A stretch of DNA of 64,000 nt, taken from assembly GCA_002763895.1 (NCBI GenBank), contig NSLH01000006.1, positions 1 to 64,000 on the forward strand, written 5' to 3'. Positions within the stretch are counted from its first letter, which is position 1. Each line of letters starts with the position of its first letter. The DNA is from [Chlorobium] sp. 445 (GTDB lineage: Bacteria; Bacteroidota; Chlorobiia; Chlorobiales; Thermochlorobacteraceae). Under the pieces are notes generated by a model that ran no database searches, was not told where the DNA came from, and saw nothing but the letters and a program-made list of their open reading frames with translations. A program made the position numbers and the translations under genes. Below, piece by piece: positions 2,126 through 12,223 of this stretch.

Positions 2126-2930
2126 TTACTTTGGACGACTGCGGTAGCGCAGTTCCATTTCTCTTACTTTGAGTTGCAGTTCTTCTAGCGGCAGTTGAAG
2201 ATAGTAATTGACAAGGTCGCGAATCATCAGCATGCGTATGTTACTATCAGCTGTCAAACCTTGACGGCGTTTTTCTTCAATGATTTGTACAAGGTTCCCA
2301 CTTGCAATTTCCTCTGCGGTCAGGACATACATTTCGCTGCCGCTTTTTTTCGTTAGCTTTGATAGCCAGTTTATCAGGCATGACGGCTGGTTGGGGCACA
2401 TTGGCACCGGGCATGGGCGCACGCATGGGCGCATGTGCGGTTGTAGACGCTGACGCCGATTGATTATGCGATTCTTCCGCTTCGCTCTGCGCTTGAATCA
2501 TTTTGTTAGTGGTGTCGCGCAGGCGCTGAGAGAGAATTTTGATGAAATTGAGCAAAATTTTGATAGCTTCGTTAGGTCGACTTTGGAGCATTCGGTCGAA
2601 GTTATACTTTGGCATCACCAACAGTTCCGAATACTCGCGCACAATTGCTGATGCCGAACGCTTTTGCTGCTCAAAGAGCGACATCTCGCCAAGCAATGCT
2701 CCCGGTCCCAGCGTCAGAAATACCACATCTTCACCTGCCGCATTTTTCTTAGCCAGATCTACTTTCCCCGAGAGAATCACATACATAATCTGCCCGACAA
2801 TGAGATTCTCGCGAAAGAGCACATACCCGGGTTCAAAACTCTTGATGAAGGCATACTTGATAATTTGTTCCATTTCTTCTGGAGAGATGCCTTCAAAAAT
2901 CGGGATATTTGTCGGGTCAATCTTTCGCAT
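2126..2930 (-). CDS. Cyclic-nucleotide-binding-domain protein, frameshifted
   Basis: The reading frame from 2930 encodes a cNMP-binding beta-roll (residues about 8-125: LFRENLIVGQIMYVILSG, GALLGEMSLFE) followed by a helix and an Ala/Pro/Met-rich linker. At an A7 run (2344-2350 on the plus strand, T7) the frame breaks. The +1 frame continues with a charged helical tail (MYVLTAEEIASGN ... MELRYRSRPK, stop at 2126). Removing one A would give a protein of about 268 aa. There is no DNA-binding HTH, so it is not a Crp regulator; it resembles stand-alone cNMP-binding effectors of unknown role. Confidence 0.8.
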
Positions 2931-4151: not shown

Positions 4152-5594
4152 ATGCTGATTCGTCTTTTCCTGTTTTGCATGCTGCTCTTGCCTTTTGCTT
4201 CTACGCTTTGGGCACAACCTGAGCCCCAAACCGTCTGCTTTTACTTCAAGCGACAAAATTTGCTCAATGCTGATGACGGTCTGACGCTCTTCATCTTAAA
4301 CACGCGCCAGCTCTCGCCTGAGCTTCAATTGCGGATTCAACCTAAAACGAAATTCTTCTACCTTGAAACCGCTAAGCCTATTGCAGGTGCCACGCCCAGC
4401 GCTAATGAAATTGTCCAAGTCTTTGAAAGTCGTCTTAGCTCCTTCTTCACTGAATTTGATAAACGCAAACTCTCCACACCTGCACAATACAAAGACCTGC
4501 TTGAAGCTGTCACAAACGGTAACCGCATATTGAGGCAAGTCAATCTTAGTGCATTTGGCATTCCCGACCGAGTTCTCGCCTTCGATGCGGATGCTGCCGA
4601 TTCTAATCCCAGACTTCTTAAAGATGCTCACAGCGCCGAAGCCATGGCGCTCTACAACTTAGCGCTCGGGGAATGGCGAGAACAAACGGCGCTACTCGAC
4701 TATAAAGATCGCTTGCTTAAAAGCACAACTGTCTCACGCCTCCTGCGCCGTACTACGCTTGAATCACTCTTTGAGGAGCCAGTGGCGATCAAACCTACTA
4801 AGCTCATGACTGAAGATCTTGCTCAAATTCAAAAAGCTGAAGAGCGTGCAACTTGGGCTTTTCTCTTGGCATTTTTTTCACTGATTGTGACGCTTTATCT
4901 TGCTATAATTTCTCTCAGTACCTTGCGCAAGCAGCGTGAGCAACTCTCTAAGCTTGAGTCCAAAGTCAAACATCTGGATTCCAAACTCAACAAACCCTTT
5001 TATCAAGAAGTCCTGCAACAATCCGAAAGCCATAGCCTTAGCCCTAAGGTGTTTGACAGTGTGCTCTCTCGTCTGGCTGCGCTTGAAAAGCAAGTTGGAG
5101 TTGAGCGTCGCACTACGGCTTTCCAAAATGACCTTGCACGACAAGCGCAAACCATCATTGCGTCTTATCACTCACGCTGGCAAGAGACGCAGCCTGTTGC
5201 ACAAACGGAGATCGCGCATAAACTTCTTCTTTATCTCGACGAATTTCTTGCAGAACTCACGCTGCTCGATAGCGATATGCCTGTCAAATCCTTTATTCAA
5301 AAATCGCTTATCACGCATATCGATAAAATTGATGCCCTTTTCCAAGCTGAACCAGATGCTCCAATCAACACACCTGAGAGCGTACAAACCTATCTCAAAG
5401 CCCTGATGGATGTCTTCGGCGTCAAAGAAATTGAAGTCAAGCAAAAGCAGTCGCTTTTTGATATTGAAAAGCATGAAAAAGCTGGCGCAATTCTAAAAAC
5501 GAATTATGAGCCCGGTACTGTTCTTAAAGTGATTCGACGCGGACTTGTCTACAACGGCTCGATTCGTAAAGCTCAAGTTGTCAAAGCAGAATAA
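4152..5594 (+). CDS. Signal-peptide and single-TM protein with GrpE-like C-terminal domain
   Basis: 480 aa from the ATG at 4152 (a TTG three codons earlier is less likely). Layout: signal peptide 1-21 (cleavage near LWA/Q); a region of about 210 residues of unknown fold; a membrane helix at about 234-257 followed by positive residues; coiled coil at about 258-317; then residues 352-480 resembling GrpE. The tail has the GrpE pattern FGVKEIE ... FDIEKHE ... EPGTVLKVIRRG ... NGSIRKAQVV, matching the beta-domain that contacts DnaK. Predicted topology puts the N-terminal domain outside and the GrpE-like part in the cytosol. A nucleotide-exchange role at the membrane is inference. Confidence 0.75.
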   Translation: MLIRLFLFCMLLLPFASTLWAQPEPQTVCFYFKRQNLLNADDGLTLFILNTRQLSPELQLRIQPKTKFFYLETAKPIAGATPSANEIVQVFESRLSSFFTEFDKRKLSTPAQYKDLLEAVTNGNRILRQVNLSAFGIPDRVLAFDADAADSNPRLLKDAHSAEAMALYNLALGEWREQTALLDYKDRLLKSTTVSRLLRRTTLESLFEEPVAIKPTKLMTEDLAQIQKAEERATWAFLLAFFSLIVTLYLAIISLSTLRKQREQLSKLESKVKHLDSKLNKPFYQEVLQQSESHSLSPKVFDSVLSRLAALEKQVGVERRTTAFQNDLARQAQTIIASYHSRWQETQPVAQTEIAHKLLLYLDEFLAELTLLDSDMPVKSFIQKSLITHIDKIDALFQAEPDAPINTPESVQTYLKALMDVFGVKEIEVKQKQSLFDIEKHEKAGAILKTNYEPGTVLKVIRRGLVYNGSIRKAQVVKAE

Positions 5595-5700: not shown

Positions 5701-6234
5701 ATGCTTCGCACCTTTCTCTTTGTGCTGCTCTGGACTTTTGCTGCACCTGCTCCATCGATTTATGACTTTACCGTCAAAACAATTGATGGTAAGGAGAAAT
5801 CACTTTCGGATTATCAAGGCAAAGTGGTTTTAATTGTCAATGTCGCTTCCGAATGTGGCTATACGCCTCAGTATGCTGAGCTCGAGAAACTCTATCAGAA
5901 ATACCGTGATAAAGGATTTGTGATTTTAGCTTTCCCTTCTAACGATTATGGCGGACAAGAGCCGGGTAGCAATGCAGATATCAAAAAGTTTTGCACTACA
6001 ACCTACGGTGTTACCTTCGAGCTTTTTGAGAAAATTCCCACAAAAGGTGAAAAGAAGCACCCGCTCTATGCGTATCTGACCAGCCAAGCGACACCTTCTG
6101 GTGAAATTGGTTGGAATTTTGAGAAGTTTCTTATCTCACGCGATGGCAGAATTGTCGGGCGTTTCAAAAGTGGTGTAAATCCCATGAGTGCTGACTTAAC
6201 AAAAGCTATTGAAGCAGAACTAGCAAAGAAATAG
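5701..6234 (+). CDS. Glutathione peroxidase family protein (exported)
   Basis: 177 aa thioredoxin-fold peroxidase that reduces hydroperoxides. The peroxidatic Cys is in NVASECGYTPQY, the Gln in GGQEPGS and the Trp in GWNFEKFL, completing the usual tetrad region. It is a Cys, not selenocysteine, form; such enzymes often use thioredoxin. An N-terminal hydrophobic stretch (residues 2-17) looks like a signal peptide or anchor, suggesting a periplasmic location. It follows the GrpE-like gene by about 100 bp and may be transcribed separately. Confidence 0.93.
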   Translation: MLRTFLFVLLWTFAAPAPSIYDFTVKTIDGKEKSLSDYQGKVVLIVNVASECGYTPQYAELEKLYQKYRDKGFVILAFPSNDYGGQEPGSNADIKKFCTTTYGVTFELFEKIPTKGEKKHPLYAYLTSQATPSGEIGWNFEKFLISRDGRIVGRFKSGVNPMSADLTKAIEAELAKK

Positions 6235-8859: not shown

Positions 8860-9490
8860 CTACGCGGCAAGTGAATCGGGTGAATCGGATGTACCGCGCT
8901 CGAGAATCGCTGGGATTTTCTCGTGCTTAACATCCTTTGTGTGATTTTCTTTGAGCAGCATGTTAGCATATTTGCGACAGATTTCCTTATGGCGCAAGAG
9001 GTCTGTTGCATAGCAGTAAGCGATGCGTACCGAATCGGTATTGATCAGCGTTAGGCGCCGCTTGCTGAGGCTGTGTAGAATACACAGTTCGAGATAATTG
9101 AGGCTAAAGAAAACGGCTTCAATAAAGCGCAGCGGGCGCGTCTGGAAACCAAATTTTATCAGTGTCGCATCACTGAAGTAGTAGGTTGTGCCACGCAGCA
9201 GCAGATCTTTGGAGTATTTCCCGCGTTCAATGTCTTCGCACAGTTTTAGCAGCCCTTGCGAGAGCGACGCCAGCATTTTGCGCGAGCCAACAATATCAGT
9301 ACGGAAAAATCATATGATGTCCCTAAGTGAATCTCGCGCTTTTTTTCCAAATCGGGACAGTAAAAAGCATCTCTGAGTGATATGTGTAGATGCCTAACTT
9401 CATAAAGAGCGGCGTTGTGATAAAACGAAGAAAGCGGTAGATGATGATGAAGGCAAGGAGCCAAAGCAGTGCTATTAGAATCGATGTCAT
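8860..9490 (-). pseudogene. Disrupted membrane-anchored protein gene (frameshift plus in-frame stop)
   Basis: The frame from ATG 9490 encodes a membrane helix (ILIALLWLLAFIIIYRFL) and then ...VPIWKK, and hits TAG at 9323. At an A7 run (T7 at 9340-9346) a shift gives KKARDSLRDII, then an in-frame TGA at 9310-9312, then FFRTDIVGSRKMLASLSQ and a further 138 residues to the stop at 8860. Read through both lesions, this would be one protein of roughly 208 aa with an N-terminal anchor. No family recognised. It converges on the FKBP gene, 3 bp apart. It could also be two separate small genes. Confidence 0.55.
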
Positions 9491-9773
9491 ATGGGTTTTG
9501 TTTGCGTACTGAAAGATACAAGAAAATCTGTTTCCAAATTGTAAAATTTGTTCTGCGTGGCTACAATTTTCTGTAAGCAAACTTTACAAGAGTTTAACAG
9601 ATGCTTTTTACATTCTTTTGGCAAGCCTTTGCCGCATTGAGTCAGCCCCTCAAGGTTGTTGATAAGCACCCTTGGTGGTTGTTCAGGTTTGAAATCTTTG
9701 CGGCAATTCTTTGATTTGAATTTAACTGCCCAGAGGGGGTTACGAATTTTACGGACTGAAATTTTAACTTATT

Positions 9774-10571
9774 ATGCCACTGCCCATCAGCGGCTTATCT
9801 GCAGCAGAAGTTCAAGAGCAGCAGCGTCAAGGACGTGTCAACTTTACGCGCACACCGCATGCCAAAAGCACACGCGAAATTTTCCTCGAAAATATCCTCA
9901 CGGTTTTTAATCTCATCAACTTTGCAATTATAGCTTTCCTTTTTGGTGTCTTTGTCTGGTCAGATGACATTCGTCTGTTGCTCGATAGCGTCGGCATCAT
10001 TACGGTGGTGTTTGCCAACACAGCGATTGCTATCGTGCAAGAATTTCGTACACGTGCCATTTTAGAAAACACACGCCTTTTGCTCTCACGCGAAGTAACG
10101 GTCGTACGTGAAGGCAAGGAAATCATCATTGAACCTTCGGAAGTTGTCGAAGGCGATGTCGTGAAAATTCACCGGGGTGAATATGCTGTCGTTGATGGTT
10201 CAGTGATTCATTCCCTTGGGTTGGAAATGGATGAATCGCTTCTGACTGGTGAATCGCTCACGATTGAAAAGCCTGTAGGGTCTGCACTTTTCTCAGGCAG
10301 TTACTGTGTAGCTGGCACGGGCTACTATGTTGCCGAGCGTGTCGGACAAAGTTCTTATGCGTCACGTATTACTGCGCTTGCACGCGAGTATAAGTTCGTG
10401 AGCACACCGCTTCAAAAACGGGTTGATAAAATTTTCGTTTGGTCATTTGTCATTGCCCTTGGCTTAGCGCTCTTTGAAATTCTGATGCGCGCCCAAACCG
10501 GCGGACTTTCAGACCTTGATTTTATCCGCCGCATTGCTACTGTTGTTATTACACTCTTACCCGAGGCTTAG
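9774..10571 (+). CDS. Cation P-type ATPase, N-terminal part (frameshifted)
   Basis: Residues 1-265 of a P-type ATPase: N-terminal GLSAAEVQEQQRQGRVN, the first membrane pair, the actuator domain with the dephosphorylation motif LLTGES, and the third and fourth helices up to ITLLPEA. The frame ends at TAG (10569-10571) exactly where the family has a PEGL motif in helix 4. One extra G in the GG at 10565-10566 would restore PEGLVFFTT and join it to the next frame. It resembles the CtpE-like group; the transported ion is uncertain. The 283 bases upstream (9491-9773) contain no gene. Confidence 0.88.
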   Translation: MPLPISGLSAAEVQEQQRQGRVNFTRTPHAKSTREIFLENILTVFNLINFAIIAFLFGVFVWSDDIRLLLDSVGIITVVFANTAIAIVQEFRTRAILENTRLLLSREVTVVREGKEIIIEPSEVVEGDVVKIHRGEYAVVDGSVIHSLGLEMDESLLTGESLTIEKPVGSALFSGSYCVAGTGYYVAERVGQSSYASRITALAREYKFVSTPLQKRVDKIFVWSFVIALGLALFEILMRAQTGGLSDLDFIRRIATVVITLLPEA

Positions 10572-12223
10572 TGTTTTTTACGACAGTTGTCTTTGCTGCT
10601 GGCGTCTATCGTGTGATGAAACTTGGCGCTGTCGTGCAAAAACTTAACGCCATTGAATCGTTCTCTACCGTTGATGTGGTCTGCTTAGACAAGACAGGCA
10701 CCCTGACAGAGAATCATCTTTCGCTGCATGCTCTCCATGCGTTTGAAAATGGCGTCTCTGAATCCAATATCAAGCAACTCTTAGGGGCGTTTGCGCACGC
10801 TTCATCGGATTCTAACGCTACAATTCAAGCGCTGCGGCACTTACCCAAAACGCCAAGCCAAGTGATTGCTGAATTGCCATTCAGCTCTGCGCGCAAGTTT
10901 TCTGCACTTCGCCTCAAAACCGAGTTAGGCGAGTTTTCGCTGGCTCTTGGCGGCTATGAAGTTCTCTTACCATTTTTGGATGAAGCCAATCAGCGCGTTT
11001 TGAATCGCACACTTGAAGAACATGGCTTGCGCGGTTACCGCAATTTGATTTTTGCAAGCCTCAGCGACGGCGTGCCACTGAACTCGCTCTTTTCGCCCAA
11101 CGGCGAGATGTCGCTCAAACTTAAACCGCTTGCTTTGATATGCCTGAGCGGCGCCATTCGCCACGATGCACCTGAGGCGCTTGCACTCTTTCGCGAAAAT
11201 CAAATTGATATCAAAATCCTTTCGGGCGACTCTGCCGATTCCGTACAAGCCACTTTGAATGACATTGGTTGGAAAACCACCAAAGGCGATGTGGTTACTG
11301 GTGCAGAACTTGATACGCTTGCGGCACATCAATTTGTAGAGCGCGTTCAAGAAAAAAGTGTCTTTGCCCGTCTTTCGCCCGAGCATAAGCAGCGCATCAT
11401 TCGCACCTTAAACAAGCATCGACGAACAGCCATGATTGGCGATGGTGTCAATGATGTGCCTGCAGTGAAAGAAGCGACGCTTGGCATTGCGATGGAAGAA
11501 GGCAGCAGCATTACGAAGGAAATTGCTGACATTGTCTTGCTCAAAAATAAATTCTCGCTTTTGCCCAAAATCTTTGAGCAAGGTCGATTAATCTTGAATA
11601 CGGTGCTCTCTATTTCGAAACTTTACCTTACTAAAAATCTCATCGTTCTGCTCTTGGAAATCTCAACGGTGCTGTTTGGCGCACTTTTTCCTCTTACGCC
11701 ACGTCGTTCGGGTTTGCTGAGTTTGCTCGGTGTCGCCTTGCCTGTCTATTTCATTACCGCCTTTAACACGCGAACGTCTCCACCACGTGCATTTTTCACC
11801 GAACTATTTTCTTTTATTGCCATCTCTCTCGTGGCATTTGCTTCGGCAAGTTACCTCTCGCAATATCTCACTCAACTTTTCTTTGAGCCCACACGCATTG
11901 AAGAAAAAATGGCGATGACCTCCGCTCTGGTCGTGATGTGTCTGGGGAATTTTGTTTACCTTGCCATGCGTGCAAATTCAGAGAAGCTTTTGCTCTTTGT
12001 GCAGTCTAGTCTGCTGGTGCTTCTGCTCTATGTATTTCTTGCGCATACCCCGTGGAATGTCTTTCCACTCAACCTTATCAAGACATTCTATGAGATTGAA
12101 AATTTTCGCATCGAGATTTGGAGCGCAATTTCTTTGGGAAGTGCTGTAGGATTAGCACTGCTCTTTACGATGCACCGCTTGAGCGAGCGGTGGCTTTATC
12201 GAAGCCTCTCTTCCCGTTCTTGA
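10571..12223 (+). CDS. Cation P-type ATPase, C-terminal part (frameshifted)
   Basis: Continuation of the same pump. It contains the phosphorylation motif DKTGTLTE, a nucleotide-binding domain, the hinge motif GDGVNDVPA and about six C-terminal membrane helices. The GTG at 10571 is probably not a true start: the preceding two codons in this frame (GL) complete the helix-4 motif. The rejoined protein would be 816 aa, a normal length. If the break is real, neither half can work, because the actuator and phosphorylation domains are separated. Confidence 0.88.
   Translation: MFFTTVVFAAGVYRVMKLGAVVQKLNAIESFSTVDVVCLDKTGTLTENHLSLHALHAFENGVSESNIKQLLGAFAHASSDSNATIQALRHLPKTPSQVIAELPFSSARKFSALRLKTELGEFSLALGGYEVLLPFLDEANQRVLNRTLEEHGLRGYRNLIFASLSDGVPLNSLFSPNGEMSLKLKPLALICLSGAIRHDAPEALALFRENQIDIKILSGDSADSVQATLNDIGWKTTKGDVVTGAELDTLAAHQFVERVQEKSVFARLSPEHKQRIIRTLNKHRRTAMIGDGVNDVPAVKEATLGIAMEEGSSITKEIADIVLLKNKFSLLPKIFEQGRLILNTVLSISKLYLTKNLIVLLLEISTVLFGALFPLTPRRSGLLSLLGVALPVYFITAFNTRTSPPRAFFTELFSFIAISLVAFASASYLSQYLTQLFFEPTRIEEKMAMTSALVVMCLGNFVYLAMRANSEKLLLFVQSSLLVLLLYVFLAHTPWNVFPLNLIKTFYEIENFRIEIWSAISLGSAVGLALLFTMHRLSERWLYRSLSSRS

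Follow-up and report, generated by a model that had tools for sequence, protein, structure and literature searches.

GrpE is a soluble cytosolic protein that forms a homodimer through its stalk and a four-helix bundle and stimulates the release of ADP from DnaK, and grpE is usually encoded with hrcA, dnaJ or dnaK. Membrane J-domain proteins of the DjlA type are membrane-tethered co-chaperones of DnaK, the J-domain stimulating ATP hydrolysis, and transmembrane anti-sigma factors and sensor kinases consist of an outside domain, one transmembrane (TM) helix and an inside effector. Bacteria have been described with one type of DnaK exchange factor, soluble GrpE (PMC4753570). Snl1 of yeast, which holds an exchange-factor-type domain on the cytosolic face of the ER/nuclear membrane through a TM helix, was called the only known membrane-associated Hsp70 exchange factor in 2014 (PMC3962485), and no bacterial membrane-anchored GrpE was found in the literature searched.

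The gene studied here, which we call mGrpE, lies in the window, the whole stretch of 64,000 nucleotides of DNA that was analysed (Table 1). Like GrpE, its product has, judging by sequence, a domain of short helices and a beta-wing that shows the motifs FD..HE, G and R.A.V. However, it lacks the long stalk helix, the basic DnaK-binding patch and the disordered N-tail of GrpE, and is fused to a signal peptide, an outside domain and a TM helix in a host that also has a normal grpE. Unlike a typical grpE, it thus encodes a putative membrane-bound protein, and its neighbours are unrelated to the DnaK system. In its mechanism mGrpE may still resemble a tethered exchange factor, the closest analogue of which is Snl1, though the likeness is one of working only: Snl1 has a BAG domain, is eukaryotic, has no folded far-side domain and is not homologous to mGrpE, in which the Pfam scan found no BAG family. 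With the DjlA type, mGrpE has in common the idea of a membrane-tethered DnaK co-chaperone, though the sequences are unrelated, and the single-pass envelope sensors have a similar layout, though no sequence relation to them was found and the effector of mGrpE is GrpE-derived. New here are the stalk-less GrpE match, an invariant cysteine (Cys29) and a WaaP/DUF4032 kinase-like gene upstream in seven genomes. A GrpE-derived domain held at the bacterial inner membrane beneath a conserved outside domain would couple envelope and Hsp70 system in a novel manner, and because the stalk has been lost naturally, the capacities of the GrpE wing by itself could be tested cleanly.

Table 1. Positions of mGrpE, its parts and the other genes discussed (window positions unless a contig handle is given)
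Feature	Position	Strand	Evidence or remark
mGrpE, whole gene, 480 aa	4152..5594	+	ORF intact; homologs in 10 genomes
Signal peptide, residues 1-21	4152..4214	+	hydropathy; hydrophobic N-terminus kept in homolog alignment
Extracytoplasmic domain, residues 22-233	4215..4850	+	lineage-specific, no Pfam family; AlphaFold2 (AF2) pLDDT mostly 80-93
Cys29	4236..4238	+	invariant in 10/10 homologs; sole cysteine of mature outside domain
TM helix, residues ~234-256	4851..4919	+	hydropathy; AF2 helix 220-279
Basic juxtamembrane helix LRKQREQLSKLESKVKHLDSKLN, residues 257-285	4920..5006	+	homolog alignment, hydropathy, AF2 model; ends in near-invariant N-[KR]-P-F-Y-Q motif
Helical linker, residues 298-383	5043..5300	+	occupies the position of the stalk in GrpE; lacks an ENxRKR-type motif
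GrpE-derived domain (short helices and beta-wing), residues 384-477	5301..5582	+	Pfam PF01025, hhalign
Next gene, glutathione-peroxidase-like, secreted	5701..6234	+	
Cyclic-nucleotide-binding-domain protein	2126-2930		split over two frames
209-aa protein	8860-9580		split over two frames
P-type ATPase	9774-12223		split into two ORFs
HscA-type Hsp70	L108:7666-9558		
J-domain/TM/WD40 protein	L109:6497-7879	-	
J-domain/TM/WD40 protein	L109:8928-10286	-	
Kinase-like gene of relatives	L043:9791-11056, L044:2351-3574		
GrpE-like ORF, G063	C1:1547008-1547352		181 aa
Hsp70-like ORF, G063	C1:1548165-1548824		540 aa

Layout, distribution and neighbours of mGrpE

Hydropathy analysis found exactly two hydrophobic stretches, at residues 1-23 (...STLWA/Q) and ~232-257, the second being preceded by three K/R and four D/E in 22 residues and followed by seven K/R and three D/E in 24 residues. 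A signal peptide in front and a single TM helix place the approximately 210 residues between them outside and the C-terminal part inside, and mGrpE is thus predicted to be a single-pass membrane protein with its GrpE-derived tail on the cytosolic side. The original prediction, made from the letters of the window alone, had proposed this layout (signal peptide, outside region of about 210 residues, one TM helix, basic residues and GrpE-like tail) and the cytosolic placement of the tail; the ORF reading, hydropathy and Pfam agreed with the former, and the topology supported the latter. Its description of a coiled coil followed by a GrpE tail held for the tail, but the coiled-coil-like helix after the TM is not the stalk of GrpE: the GrpE match begins past the long stalk helix and leaves profile positions 1-64 unmatched.

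The whole architecture is conserved in ten genomes: all nine of the window's family (Thermochlorobacteraceae) and one of a sister family (G277), where the copy consists of two contig ends. Of the 395 genomes sampled across the phylum, no others had it, those of Chlorobiaceae included, and no such tail was found in viral contigs and plasmids. The bearers are heat-loving relatives of green sulfur bacteria, the host itself being related to Candidatus Thermochlorobacter, and the homologs of Candidatus Thermochlorobacter aerophilum and Thermochlorobacteriaceae bacterium GBChlB share 72% and 47% identity, respectively, with mGrpE. The original prediction held that homologs without the C-terminal match would speak against it; one was found, in the relative G005 (one contig of 3.29 Mb, probably Chloroherpeton thalassium). 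The G005 homolog keeps the outside domain, the TM and the juxtamembrane helix and ends at 330 residues; the GrpE tail was therefore acquired or lost in one piece. Ca. T. aerophilum lives aerobically as a photoheterotroph, whereas C. thalassium is anaerobic (PMC9318685); the tail thus goes with the aerobic lineage here, an association based on very few independent events.

The outside domain belongs to no Pfam family and has no clear relatives beyond the lineage; a search elsewhere in the phylum for the domain joined to other effectors gave only weak matches (E ~1e-3 to 1e-2), mostly in TM or coil segments, which were treated as chance. Although the ten sequences have only ~30% of their residues in common, Cys29 is invariant among them, and it provides a first concrete clue to the signal that the domain might sense. 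Lipoprotein anchoring through Cys29 was rejected, as the sequences (PQTVC, KTIC, GVVC) contain no lipobox and the cysteine lies past the end of the signal peptide. The glutathione-peroxidase-like gene is directly downstream of mGrpE in four genomes, those of the window's genus and G285, and is not conserved as a neighbour in all genera. The invariance of Cys29 and the peroxidase-like next gene together suggest a possible thiol-based sensor in the outside domain, whose sensing role is putative.

Upstream of mGrpE, the other genera have a DUF429 gene as well as one for a kinase-like protein (DUF4032, 51.9 bits; Kdo/WaaP-like region, 21.1 bits). The kinase-like gene is directly adjacent in seven of the ten tail-bearing genomes, the two reading frames overlapping in G079, and none of the five tail-less genomes tested had it. 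A strict kinase-tail link was rejected, since the window's own genus has the tail and this gene was found nowhere in it. None of the neighbours compared was a gene of the DnaK system.

GrpE ancestry of the tail

In the Pfam-A search, GrpE (PF01025) was the sole family over its cut-off in mGrpE, with 31.3 bits against a threshold of 25.8 (E 2e-7); the match aligned residues 384-477 with positions 65-162 of the 165 in the profile. All nine aligned tail-bearing homologs matched GrpE at E<=0.1 (best 6e-11), although in the genome search three tail-bearing homologs scored under the PF01025 cut-off. When the profile was compared by hhalign with that of 14 canonical Chlorobia GrpEs, the E value was 2e-7 (93.5%), and all ten tails scored above 2000 composition-matched shuffled tails with an HMM of canonical GrpEs. 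Searches of NCBIfam returned solely weak GrpE matches, far under their cut-offs, and in a sequence search of the PDB the first match was E. coli GrpE (E 0.006). No other part of mGrpE is as well conserved as the tail (mean column identity of 67%, vs 53% for the whole protein), implying a conserved partner, and differences between tails of 3-14% at codon position 2 and 50-57% at position 3 indicated purifying selection. At the level of sequence profiles, the descent of the tail from GrpE, as originally proposed, was shown.

Structure prediction spoke neither for nor against this. With the ten-sequence alignment, AF2 gave a mean pLDDT of 74 and confident models of the outside domain and the helices, the monomer having a compact helical region; residues 429-459, however, had a pLDDT <50 and the beta-wing was not resolved, and the tail modelled alone behaved in the same way. 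Foldseek searches of the PDB with the full and the tail model returned no match at E <= 0.001, and no GrpE structure was among the matches listed for these query models, in which the wing had a pLDDT <50. The unresolved wing and the Foldseek result are what speaks for the view that a helix and beta-hairpins resemble GrpE by chance. The curated Pfam cut-off was nevertheless exceeded, the match recurred throughout the nine aligned homologs, and neither the profile-profile E value nor the shuffled tails fit with coincidence; this explanation is largely refuted and appears very improbable.

The tail keeps D391, D437 (9/10), H441, G464, R472, A474 (9/10) and V476, which are near-universal in the canonical GrpEs compared. 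The near-universal Ala after HE is replaced by an invariant Lys (K443) in all ten homologs, GY by GL/GF465 and the last V by K/R478; K443, L/F465 and K473 are, within this family, fixed replacements of residues universal in GrpE. R462 (R in 9/10) aligns with R169 of M. tuberculosis (Mtb) GrpE, which forms a salt bridge with Glu236 of DnaK (PMC10803776), and D437 with D171 of human GRPEL1, which contacts the Hsp70 lid (PMC11685456); R462 and D437 are therefore putative equivalents of DnaK-contact residues. No homolog has a counterpart of the basic stalk patch or its ENxRKR-type motif, and the residues at the spacing of the patch are acidic (LDEFLAELTLLDSD). The original prediction would have been refuted by a lack of DnaK-contact residues, and here the evidence was divided, the wing residues being kept, but the stalk patch being absent and the Ala after HE being replaced by Lys. 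In the study of the Mtb DnaK-GrpE structure, the stalk-patch residues R64, N71, R73, K74, R75 and R78 were reported to be required for DnaK binding, exchange and viability, whereas mutants of the wing patch had mild effects (PMC10803776). The tail has thus lost a part on which other GrpEs depend for holding on to DnaK; mGrpE may link the envelope to DnaK, but docking on or modulation of DnaK would be expected rather than full GrpE-type exchange.

The DnaK system of the host

The ordinary grpE that the original prediction expected elsewhere in the genome was found in an hrcA-grpE-dnaJ operon on a contig other than that of mGrpE. The host has one true DnaK, and its second full-length Hsp70 is HscA (NCBIfam, TIGR01991), which rules it out as a dedicated partner of mGrpE. 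HscA is reported to work independently of GrpE (PMC4753570), so that among the Hsp70s DnaK is the candidate partner of the tail. With one DnaK and an ordinary GrpE in the cell, a tail directed at DnaK would share it with the canonical GrpE.

Almost side by side, the host also encodes two proteins in which an N-terminal J-domain is combined with one TM helix and a WD40 propeller, a second type of membrane-tethered DnaK co-chaperone. Full-length proteins of this type were present in all Thermochlorobacteraceae-type genomes, G277 and G087, and absent in Chlorobiaceae and G005. They occur together with the tail in all ten tail-bearing genomes; however, G087 encodes the J-domain protein but lacks the tail, and the genomes are close relatives of one another, so the link between the two is suggestive only.

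Proposed mode of action and alternatives

We propose, with a probability of slightly under one half, that mGrpE is an envelope-anchored, GrpE-derived device for docking DnaK that is governed by the outside domain. The GrpE-derived domain would be held at the cytosolic face by the single pass through the inner membrane, and its short helices and beta-wing would engage the cell's single DnaK at the nucleotide-binding domain, bringing DnaK to the envelope or setting it free there. Probably via Cys29, the outside domain may report an envelope condition, most likely the redox state, and the signal would pass through the TM and the juxtamembrane helix. DnaK binding, signalling across the membrane and redox sensing are what we infer from the sequences. 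This proposal is favoured by the GrpE homology and high conservation of the tail, the seven retained GrpE positions from D391 to V476, the alignment of R462 and D437 with contact residues, DnaK being the sole fitting Hsp70, the J-domain/TM/WD40 proteins of the same genomes, the invariance of Cys29 and the peroxidase-like next gene in four genomes. It is opposed by the missing stalk patch, the changes at K443, GL/GF465 and K/R478, the low pLDDT of the wing, the lack of a GrpE structure among the Foldseek matches listed, the lack of an adjacent DnaK-system gene and the peroxidase-like neighbour not being conserved in all genera. The recruitment of DnaK to the envelope, as first suggested, is consistent with the GrpE ancestry, topology and conservation of the tail, though it is weakened by the absence of the stalk patch.

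The main rival is that the tail descends from GrpE and no longer acts on DnaK, its wing now docking a different protein of the cytosol, for instance the kinase-like one (WaaP/DUF4032) whose gene lies directly upstream in relatives. Loss of the stalk patch and the fixed K443, L/F465 and K473 would be explained by such repurposing, as would the position of the kinase-like gene in seven tail-bearing genomes and its absence from the five tail-less ones tested; however, the window's genus has the tail and no such kinase anywhere, and D437, H441, G464, R472, A474 and V476 remain GrpE-like. We regard a different partner as rather unlikely. If mGrpE were instead a fully active membrane-bound exchange factor working exactly like GrpE, the basic juxtamembrane helix (LRKQREQLSKLESKVKHL), which lies N-terminal of a wing of the GrpE type, would have to substitute for the stalk. 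This is improbable, as the distance between this helix and the wing exceeds that in GrpE by ~80-100 residues, with other helices between, and acidic residues stand where the spacing of GrpE would place the patch. The docking device that we favour could also be extended to a transmembrane redox sensor controlling Hsp70, in which oxidation of the outside cysteine would change the oligomeric state and expose or hide the stalk-less wing, a local DnaK cycle being run at the inner membrane with the J-domain/WD40 proteins. Such an extension is speculative and seems unlikely to hold in full; if true, it would constitute an envelope-stress pathway acting directly on the chaperone, without transcription.

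Several other observations were made in the genomes compared. Both the window's family and the sister family have the HscA-type Hsp70, as do the two Chloroherpeton-like genomes, and each of the three Chlorobiaceae genomes tested had a single full-length Hsp70. In G063 (Chlorobiaceae), a second, short GrpE-like ORF lies ~1 kb upstream of a divergent Hsp70-like ORF, possibly forming a specialised GrpE/Hsp70 pair. Within the window, the cyclic-nucleotide-binding-domain protein, the 209-aa protein and the P-type ATPase are split, which may reflect assembly indels or real frameshifts; the first two are each encoded by one ORF in a relative (L001).
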